Positions 102-34,097 of a stretch of 34,097 nucleotides of DNA are shown one piece after another. The DNA lies in NCBI GenBank assembly GCA_012271265.1, contig JAAXGQ010000021.1:1-34097 (forward strand), in the 5' to 3' direction. Below the pieces are notes generated by a model, which ran no database searches, was not told the DNA's origin, and saw only the letters and a program-made list of their open reading frames with translations. The first letter of the stretch is position 1; each line of letters opens with the position of its first letter. Both the position numbers and the translations under genes were made by a program. This DNA comes from Vicinamibacteraceae bacterium (GTDB taxonomy: Bacteria > Acidobacteriota > Vicinamibacteria > Marinacidobacterales > Marinacidobacteraceae).

Positions 102-126
102 GCCGGTGAGGACACCGGCGCTCCAT
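102..126 (-). repeat. Inverted, diverged copy of the repeat core
   Basis: Reads as the reverse complement of the core element that starts ATGGAGCGCCGGCG. It has two A/G-to-T/A-type differences in the hairpin arms. It lies head-to-head with the plus-orientation core at 158-185, so this locus carries both orientations within 85 bp. Confidence 0.6.
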
Positions 127-157: not shown

Positions 158-185
158 ATGGAGCGCCGGCGTCCTCGCCGGCCTG
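158..185 (+). repeat. Core hairpin element of the dispersed repeat
   Basis: A perfect copy of the core: ATGGAGC followed by GCCGGCG-TCCT-CGCCGGC, a 7-bp stem with a 4-base loop, then CTG. The same core begins each unit of the array at 33742-34097 and appears as its reverse complement three times at 21563-21748. Confidence 0.75.
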
Positions 186-3022: not shown

Positions 3023-3742
3023 GTGCCTGCCACCCGGGACGCTGCGGCCCCACTCCCCGCCGGTCTCGCTGACCGGGTCACCGCCTGCCGCCGCTGTCCC
3101 CGCCTCGTCGCCCACCGGGAGGCCGTCGCCGCAGCGCCTCCGCGGCGCTTTCGGGGCCAGGCGTACTGGGCCCGACCGGTCCCTTCGCTGGGAGACCGCG
3201 ATCCCCGGCTGCTGATCGTGGGGCTCGCGCCGGCGGCGAACGGAGCGAATCGGACGGGGCGGATGTTCACCGGCGACCGCTCGGGTGAATGGCTCTTCGA
3301 GGCGCTCCACCGCTACGGTTTTTCGACCGGGCCTCACTCTCCCGATCCGGACGACGGGCTCCGGCTCCTCGACGCCCGGATCACGGCTGTCATCCACTGC
3401 GCTCCGCCCGGGAACCGGCCCGCTGTGCAGGAAAAGTCCGCCTGCCGTCCTTTCCTGGTGGAAGAGATTCGCCGGGGGACCCGACTCCGGGTCGTCGTCG
3501 CGCTCGGCGGCGTGGCCTTCCAGGGCTTCCTCCGCGCCTGGCGCGAGGCCGGGCGCACGGCGCCGAAGCCGCTCCCGCGCTTCGGCCATGCCGCCGCCTG
3601 CCGGCTCGAAGGCGGCGTGCGTCTCATCGCCAGCTACCACCCCAGCCAGCAGAACACGTTTACCGGCCGGCTGACGCGTCCCGCCTTCCATGGAGTTTTT
3701 CGCGACGCCCGGCGCCTCCTTGCCGGCGCCGAAACCAGCTGA
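3023..3742 (+). CDS. Family 5 uracil-DNA glycosylase (UDGb), [4Fe-4S] type
   Basis: A 239-residue base-excision-repair glycosylase that removes uracil, and in this family also other deaminated bases, from DNA. The family 5 motif GLAPAANGANRTGRMFTGD spans residues 67-85; it lacks the polar catalytic residue of family 1 enzymes, as expected for UDGb. The second motif, HPSQQNTFTGRLT, is at 206-218 and corresponds to the DNA-intercalation loop. Four cysteines at 22, 25, 126 and 141 (CRRC, HCAPPGNRP, ACRPF) fit the iron-sulfur cluster. The GTG at 3023 is preferred because of GGGGAG upstream. It is divergent from the TudS-DUF1722 gene, and the alpha/beta hydrolase reading frame starts inside its 3' end. 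Family assignment is firm. Confidence 0.93.
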   Translation: MPATRDAAAPLPAGLADRVTACRRCPRLVAHREAVAAAPPRRFRGQAYWARPVPSLGDRDPRLLIVGLAPAANGANRTGRMFTGDRSGEWLFEALHRYGFSTGPHSPDPDDGLRLLDARITAVIHCAPPGNRPAVQEKSACRPFLVEEIRRGTRLRVVVALGGVAFQGFLRAWREAGRTAPKPLPRFGHAAACRLEGGVRLIASYHPSQQNTFTGRLTRPAFHGVFRDARRLLAGAETS

Positions 3743-4535
3743 GGGGGACCTGGACGCGCGTCCCGTGGAACATACCGTCGCCCCGGAAGCCACCGGGCAG
3801 GCCCCGCTGGCCCTGAGCTGGACGGCCGGGCACGAAGGCGAGGCGCCGTGGCTGTTCGTGCACGGGCTCGGGGCCGATCGGAACGGGGACAAGGCCCGAC
3901 GATTCCGGGATCACCTGACCGCGCGCGGCCGCCCGTTCGGCGCCTTCGACTTCACCGGGCACGGTGACTCCGGGGGCGACTGCCGTGGTCTGTCGCTCTC
4001 GCGGAACATCGAGGACATCGGGCGCGTGGTCCGCTTCCTTCGGGCCGCGGCGCCGGGACCGCCGCCAGGACTGATCGGGTCTTCGATGGGAGGGATTGCC
4101 GCTCTCTGGTACGCCGGCCTGCATCCCGGGTCTGTGTCCGCCGTCTACGCAATCGCTCCGGCCTTCGGGATGGCGCGGCGCCTCGCCGCCAGTCTTTCGG
4201 CCCCGGAGCGCCGCGCGTGGGCGCAACGGGGCTTTCTTTCCTTCCCGATCGGGGATCGGGTCCTGGACTTCGGCTGGGGTGCGGTGACCGACGAGGACCG
4301 CTACCCGGACGAGGCGCTGGCCGCGCGGCTGACCACCCCGTCTCTCCTCCTTCACGGTGCGGCCGATGCCGTGGTTCCGGTGGAACTCTCCCGGGACTTT
4401 GCTGCGAGCTGCCCTGCGGCCACCCTGTTGGAAATCGAGGGCGGGGACCACCGGCTTGGCGCACATCGCGACCTGTTGTTCGAGCTCATCTGGACCCGCG
4501 CCCCCGAAAACCCTGCCCGGTCCAGGAGGCGATGA
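3690..4535 (+). CDS. Alpha/beta-hydrolase fold protein
   Basis: A 281-residue cytosolic hydrolase of unknown substrate. The catalytic triad is visible: nucleophile Ser132 in GSSMGG, Asp226 in LHGAADAVVP and His254 in EGGDHRLG. The oxyanion/HG motif LFVHGLGADRNGDK follows the first strands, and the region is otherwise like small acyl-esterase or peptidase-like members. Without conserved partners no substrate can be named. The start is uncertain: the ATG at 3690 overlaps the uracil-DNA glycosylase by 53 bp with no ribosome site, while a GTG at 3765 avoids the overlap but lies some 16 bases after GAGGGGGA. Residues 1-35 are therefore doubtful. Its TGA overlaps the ATG of the MscS gene (ATGA), indicating translational coupling. 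Confidence 0.85.
   Translation: MEFFATPGASLPAPKPAEGDLDARPVEHTVAPEATGQAPLALSWTAGHEGEAPWLFVHGLGADRNGDKARRFRDHLTARGRPFGAFDFTGHGDSGGDCRGLSLSRNIEDIGRVVRFLRAAAPGPPPGLIGSSMGGIAALWYAGLHPGSVSAVYAIAPAFGMARRLAASLSAPERRAWAQRGFLSFPIGDRVLDFGWGAVTDEDRYPDEALAARLTTPSLLLHGAADAVVPVELSRDFAASCPAATLLEIEGGDHRLGAHRDLLFELIWTRAPENPARSRRR
4524..4529 (+). promoter_or_regulatory. Ribosome binding site of the MscS gene
   Basis: AGGAGG lies 2 bases before the ATG at 4532 and 5 bases before the ATG at 4535, so the second ATG has the better spacing. Confidence 0.65.
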
Positions 4536-16522: not shown

Positions 16523-16596
16523 TACGCCTGGAGGGACTCGAACCCCCGGCCTACGGATTAGGAATCCGTCGCTCTCTCCTCCTGAGCTACAGGCGC
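16523..16596 (-). tRNA. tRNA-Arg (anticodon CCT)
   Basis: A complete 74-base cloverleaf on the minus strand. The acceptor GCGCCTG pairs with CAGGCGT (one G-T pair at the end), the D arm is GCTC/GAGC, the anticodon arm ACGGA-TTCCTAA-TCCGT gives CCT, and the T arm is GGGGG-TTCGAGT-CCCTC. CCA is not encoded. It reads AGG codons, which are minor in such a genome. It lies 50 bp downstream of apt on the same strand. Confidence 0.97.
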
Positions 16597-21382: not shown

Positions 21383-21520
21383 GTGGATCGGGCCATGCCG
21401 CCGGAACGTCCCATGTCCCAGGGGGCCAACCGGATCACAGGGTCCCACGCACCGGGACGTCATTCGGTGGGTTGGGGAGTCCCCGGGGCAAGGACCGCTG
21501 TTCCGGCGGTACGGCGGCAG
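21383..21520. other. Gene-poor stretch before the repeat array
   Basis: Part of the 698-bp interval between the dioxygenase and the S9 peptidase (21177-21874). I see no coding signal, RNA gene or strong hairpin in this 138-bp part. The rest of the interval holds the small frame at 21173-21382, the tandem array at 21521-21762 and about 110 bp of leader with nothing recognised. Confidence 0.5.
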
Positions 21521-21762
21521 TGTCGGCAAGAGACTGCCTATGGGACCGAAGGTGCGGCGCAGGCCGGCGAGGACGCCGGCGCTCCATGGGGCCGGCGGCG
21601 GTGTCGGCAAGAGACTGCCTATGGGACGAAGGTGCGGCGCAGGCCGGCGAGGACGCCGGCGCTCCATGGGGCCGGCGGCGGTGTCGGCAAGAGACTGCCT
21701 GAGGGACCGGAGGTGCGGTGCAGGCCGGCGAGGACGCCGGCGCTCCATGGGGCCGGCGGCGG
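21521..21762 (-). repeat. Tandem array of three 80-81 bp hairpin repeats (minus orientation)
   Basis: Three consecutive units begin at 21521, 21602 and 21682 (periods 81 and 80). Each contains GGCAAGAGACTGCC, the reverse complement of GGCAGTCTCTTGCC, and the core hairpin (GCCGGCG-AGGA-CGCCGGC) at 21563, 21643 and 21724. It is the reverse complement of the 77-bp family at 33742-34097. Differences between units are few, so duplication is recent. The array encodes frames on both strands, but the 80-81 bp period shifts the frame at each unit, so it is not protein coding. Confidence 0.85.
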
Positions 21763-33725: not shown

Positions 33726-34097
33726 ATGGAGCGCCGGCCCCATGGAGCGTCAGCGTCCTCGCCGGCCTGCGCCGCACCTTCGCTCCCTCAGGCAGTCACC
33801 TGCCGACCGCGCCACCCCATGGAGCGCCGGCGTCCTCGCCGGCCCGCGCCGCACCTTCGCTCCCACAGCCAGTCACCTGCCGACCGCGCCGGCCCATGGA
33901 GCGCCGGCGTCCTCGCCGGCCCGCGCCGCACCTTCGCTCCCTCGGGCAGTCACCTGCCGCCCGCGCCGGCCCATGGAGCGCCGGCGTCCTCGCCGGCCTG
34001 CGCCACACCTTCACTCCCTCAGGCAGTCACCTGCCGCCCGCGCCGGCCCATGGAGCGCCGGCGTCCTCGCCGGCCCGCGCCGCACCTTCGCTCCCTC
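33726..34097 (+). repeat. 77-bp tandem repeat array with conserved hairpins, running off the window
   Basis: A partial unit (33726-33741) is followed by units starting at 33742, 33819, 33896, 33973 and 34050, exactly 77 bp apart; the last is cut by the window end. Each has the core GCCGGCG-TCCT-CGCCGGC hairpin (the first unit has a mutated left arm) and a second hairpin GGCAG-TCAC-CTGCC (broken in the unit at 33819). Unit identity is high. The period is not a multiple of three and no unit has a ribosome site, so the array is not protein coding. It is the same family as 21521-21762 and 1-185, in the opposite orientation to the former. Confidence 0.9.

Follow-up and report, generated by a model that had tools for sequence, protein, structure and literature searches.

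The window, which is the whole stretch of DNA analyzed (34,097 nucleotides), ends in a tandem array that begins approximately 60 bp downstream of the stop of an amidohydrolase gene. As the earlier note had proposed, five units follow one another at an exact spacing of 77 bp, which is borne out both by TRF (92% matches, 0% indels) and by the starts of the five hairpin cores, although the first core is degenerate (Table 1). Each unit consists of (C/T)GGAGC, a stem of 7 bp that encloses the loop TCCT, and a linker of approximately 50 bp. The 4.8 copies counted by TRF represent the part of the array within the window, since the array runs on across an assembly gap, a run of Ns at C80:34098-34245 (L009:6099-6246), and units reappear beyond it as far as approximately C80:34576, based on genome matches to the unit. 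Because the units on either side of the N run are out of 77-bp phase, the size given for this gap is an estimate. Many other arrays of this kind likewise lie at contig ends, and they account for many of the contig breaks in the source genome. The two arrays of the window are of the direct type, while the pair of cores near its start is of the alternating type.

Table 1. Features of the window, named according to the interpretation reached in the text.
Feature	Position	Strand	Basis
REP core, compensatory variant GCCGGTG-TCCT-CACCGGC	102-124	-	core match
REP core, exact; faces the opposite way to 102-124 and forms a BIME/REPIN-like pair of the two variants with it	160-182	+	core match
tRNA gene	16523-16596	-	Rfam RF00005, 68 bits
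Second direct REP array, 80/81-bp spacing, cores at 21563, 21643 and 21724	21512-21762	-	TRF, core match
Direct tandem array of REP-plus-linker units	33731-34097	+	TRF; 77-bp period, 4.8 copies in window
REP core 1, degenerate (2 mismatches, stem partly broken)	33744-33766	+	core pattern match
REP core 2, exact GGAGC-GCCGGCG-TCCT-CGCCGGC	33821-33843	+	core pattern match
REP core 3, exact	33898-33920	+	core pattern match
REP core 4, exact	33975-33997	+	core pattern match
REP core 5, exact; final whole core ahead of the gap at 34098	34052-34074	+	core match, N run

The hairpin is abundant throughout the genome. The 23-base core GGAGCGCCGGCGTCCTCGCCGGC (core 2 in Table 1) occurs in 852 exact copies in 3.4 Mb, divided 434 to 418 between the strands, and in 1366 copies when up to two mismatches are allowed. 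The whole 77-bp unit has 194 matches. As controls, the reversed core pattern had 0 copies in the whole genome, and 100 dinucleotide shuffles of the window contained 0 matches to the hairpin core. The earlier note, which had proposed this genome-wide search and strand count, regarded an array found only here, with no compensatory change in copies elsewhere, as grounds to call it an isolated tandem duplication; the copies found across the genome have the opposite character. An isolated duplication or an assembly artefact at one locus, as might be suspected from the gap inside the array, is thus refuted by the 852 cores and 194 unit matches, and the second array in the window and the related elements in relatives make it still harder to sustain. 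Its probability is very low.

Conservation is nearly complete across the 23-base core and high in the three preceding bases, which have the consensus CAT. On the 3' side, a variable pair is followed by approximately 10 bases that are mostly 70-90% conserved, and conservation fades over approximately 70 bases. The copies are mostly extragenic. In the array-bearing loci, to which the gene-context figures are restricted and in which genes were called with a simple codon-usage gene caller, only 35 of 223 copies fell within called genes, though 75% of the DNA is coding.

The 7-bp stem with its TCCT loop, also put forward in the earlier note, is supported by covariation. Among 1140 copies in the whole genome, stem pair 10/17 is C-G in 852, T-A in 257 and broken in 31; the 257 T-A copies are the compensatory variant GCCGGTG/CACCGGC. 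In the fetched array loci, the corresponding counts are 182, 44 and 4. Hence, the palindrome is maintained through complementary changes. These variant counts were used instead of the 40-unit alignment (A1), which contains C-G type units only and cannot reveal covariation in this stem. The same note described a second conserved hairpin in every unit. This stem, GGCAG-TCAC-CTGCC, is found in most copies in the window, yet it is often broken elsewhere. Across the units of the genome, 82.5% of cells are paired and 17.5% unpaired, with no compensatory change, and RNAalifold did not predict the second hairpin from the 40 units. It was therefore rejected as a conserved structure.

The arrangement of the copies was examined in the approximately 40 array-bearing loci that were mapped. 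The usual distance between same-facing neighbors is 76-78 bp, smaller groups lie at 33-37, 95-96 and 153-154 bp, and the periods of direct arrays range from 54 to 96 bp. In the source genome (G000), the same hairpin forms direct arrays with 54-bp spacing at C14:7645-8153 and C20:14307-14491. Opposite-facing neighbors are C/T heterodimers of the two stem variants in 66 of 89 cases, compared with approximately 31% expected from the variant frequencies, whereas 52 of 60 same-facing neighbors are C/C. The alternating arrays therefore show the BIME pattern, with two stem variants in alternating orientation. Linker identity is 86% within arrays and 80% between them (0 of 2000 shuffles were as extreme), while 33% would be expected from composition. 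This likeness indicates that the REP-plus-linker unit is itself a dispersed family, and the closer likeness within arrays suggests that it is also amplified locally. A regularly spaced palindromic repeat could also belong to a CRISPR-like or integron-like array. However, as the earlier note had pointed out, the bases between hairpins are conserved: the would-be spacers are approximately 80% identical across the genome, and CRISPR was rejected because its spacers should be unique. In addition, the period varies and orientation alternates in many arrays, making this the least probable of the explanations considered.

The genome encodes a single Y1_Tnp gene, on contig C268, whose product scores above the cut-off for PF01797 and matches REP_Tyr_transpos (NF047646), the NCBIfam model of REP-associated tyrosine transposases (RAYTs), at 84.7 bits against a cut-off of 80. 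By sequence, the only solved relative of this RAYT is the E. coli TnpA-REP (4ER8). In the alignment with 4ER8, with residues counted by hand, the tyrosine of the motif VGYIRRNPV lies opposite E. coli Tyr115, the catalytic residue of that enzyme (PMC8266576). The HVH motif and the tyrosine at the catalytic position are invariant in 15 aligned RAYTs. When genome contigs were searched for this RAYT, just two matches came up, both distant, in an Opitutia MAG and a Flavobacteriales MAG at 44% identity. No related RAYT was found in viral contigs, and the exact 23-base hairpin was present in just one of them, at L109:8391-8413 (IMGVR_UViG_3300048819_000301).

In locus L060, where the RAYT gene spans approximately 3495-4298, exact hairpins surround it with their heads outward, at 3129 and 3365 (+) upstream and at 4394 and 4603 (-) downstream. 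Because opposite-facing copies also occur upstream, the locus is a mosaic. Moreover, with hairpins this abundant, finding the single RAYT bracketed by them is only moderately improbable by chance, with a rough estimate of 0.005, and the weight of the bracketing argument is on the relatives rather than on this locus. Two hairpins of a rarer class with the same layout, GG(A/T)CC-GTGGGCG-TCCC-CGCCCAC, also lie beside the gene (L060 2974-2996 and 4517-4539, contig C268); with the tag tested, the genome holds four copies of this class in all.

All nine of the other genomes from the same family possess a RAYT. In eight of the nine (G001-G007 and G009), at least one RAYT lies between inverted hairpins, and in G008 the hairpin is found downstream only, where the contig begins shortly upstream of the gene. 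The tag of most of these hairpins is GGAGC or GGAAC. Their stems all begin with GCCG, while the remainder varies by genome and stays self-complementary. The inner stem covaries in the relatives, as GCC/GGC, GTC/GAC, ACC/GGT and GCT/AGC, at bases that were left free in the search. Hairpins of the relatives' forms number 55-327 per genome in eight genomes, and the source genome's own stem is nearly absent from them. The copies flanking the RAYT often form direct repeats 77-86 bp apart (G001, G004, G006 and G007), indicating that a spacing of approximately 80 bp is not private to the source genome. Beside the RAYT at L096 and L099 (G003 and G005), every unit carries a second hairpin directly after the REP, for example GCGGCCC-GCA-GGGCCGC; this one is strong, whereas the second stem of the window's units is weak.

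Overall, the array is best interpreted, with a probability of roughly 0.93, as a direct tandem cluster of repetitive extragenic palindromes (REPs) of the BIME type and as the non-coding component of a RAYT-REP system. The defining features of such systems are present, the GT(A/G)G tag excepted, and the copy number exceeds the more than 100 per genome by which REP and BIME palindromes of 20-40 bp are recognized. The RAYT, a Y1/HUH single-strand endonuclease, would recognize the folded REP strand and spread single REPs or pairs of them in trans. Tandem duplication, through slippage or unequal recombination, may then have multiplied the REP-plus-linker unit locally and given the 77-bp array. Mobilization by the RAYT is the probable source of the copies. 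The suggestion in the earlier note that the array spreads by itself holds with regard to spread through the genome, but probably not with regard to autonomy, because a REP-associated transposase gene lies between copies of this hairpin, which most likely moves in trans.

A different reading is that the arrays are kept mainly as host DNA or RNA structures, such as gyrase- or IHF-type sites, stabilizers of mRNA 3' ends or a repeated small RNA, and that the RAYT explains their origin rather than their present function. The position of the array just past the amidohydrolase gene and the conservation of linkers between arrays agree with such a role, as does the binding of E. coli BIMEs by gyrase, IHF and DNA polymerase I (PMC2817692). 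It is nevertheless rather unlikely. When the whole window was searched against Rfam at the gathering threshold, the tRNA alone was matched and no family was found for the array, and the gaps between genes that hold REPs have no clear preference for gene orientation, although the numbers are small. Furthermore, the stem is wholly changed between relatives, which fits a transposase partner more than a site for a host protein.

The interpretation as a REP-RAYT system is in keeping with several described cases. As in the E. coli REP/BIME-2 elements and TnpA-REP (RayT/YafM; PDB 4ER8), high-copy extragenic palindromes occur in two alternating stem variants and bracket a single Y1/HUH transposase gene with an aligned Tyr115. 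In contrast to E. coli, the tag is GGAG instead of GTAG, the stem is perfect, without the E. coli bulge, and many arrays are direct. The REPINs and tandem GI REP arrays of Pseudomonas fluorescens SBW25 also have short, perfectly paired stems; inverted doublets occur, copies cluster next to the RAYT, and REPs facing the same way form arrays at even spacing, so that such arrays have already been described (PMC3116915). However, the tag in SBW25 is of the GTGG type, the strain belongs to a different phylogenetic group, and direct arrays were reported at two sites there, compared with many in the source genome. In the survey of GTAG REPs and TIR-flanked RAYT-like genes by Di Nocera et al., tyrosine transposase genes are likewise bracketed by tagged palindromes or inverted repeats, also outside the Proteobacteria (PMC3733652). 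The system is therefore known as a kind, and this one known kind of mobile element accounts for the array and more than 1000 other hairpins in the genome.

The tag is unusual in that it departs from the GT(A/G)G rule. The REPs described as flanking RAYTs carry a GT(A/G)G tag (PMC2817692, PMC3686654), and this 5' tetranucleotide defines the superfamily of Nunvar and Di Nocera. In the source genome and most relatives, the tag is instead (C/T)GGAG or (C/T)GGAA, and for this reason the element is not filed as a GTAG REP. A literature search, in whose coverage many journals were missing, found no paper on GGAG-tagged REPs. Work on TnpA-REP suggests that the tetranucleotide serves as a guide, with bases 3 and 4 (AG) matching the CT cleavage site (PMC8266576). 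Since GGAG retains the AG, a similar role as cleavage-site guide is plausible by analogy. It is possible, at slightly less than even odds, that the RAYT lineage of this family uses a non-GTAG guide (GGAG/GGAA) and that stem and tag have changed together with the RAYT across the ten genomes, a natural series from which the recognition code could be deduced by comparison. The related genomes, which each have one or a few RAYTs bracketed by differing self-complementary stems, offer a useful basis for comparing how RAYTs recognize REPs and how direct REP arrays arise.

The GTAG tag is absent from the element described here, yet in the wider class one RAYT, in G025, has CGTAG-tagged hairpins on both sides, and another has CGGAG-tagged ones. 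In G049, of the same class, hairpins tagged GGTCC/GGTGC with the stem GCCGGCCT bracket a RAYT at L105, and 20 GGTGC-type hairpins with another stem occur elsewhere in that genome.
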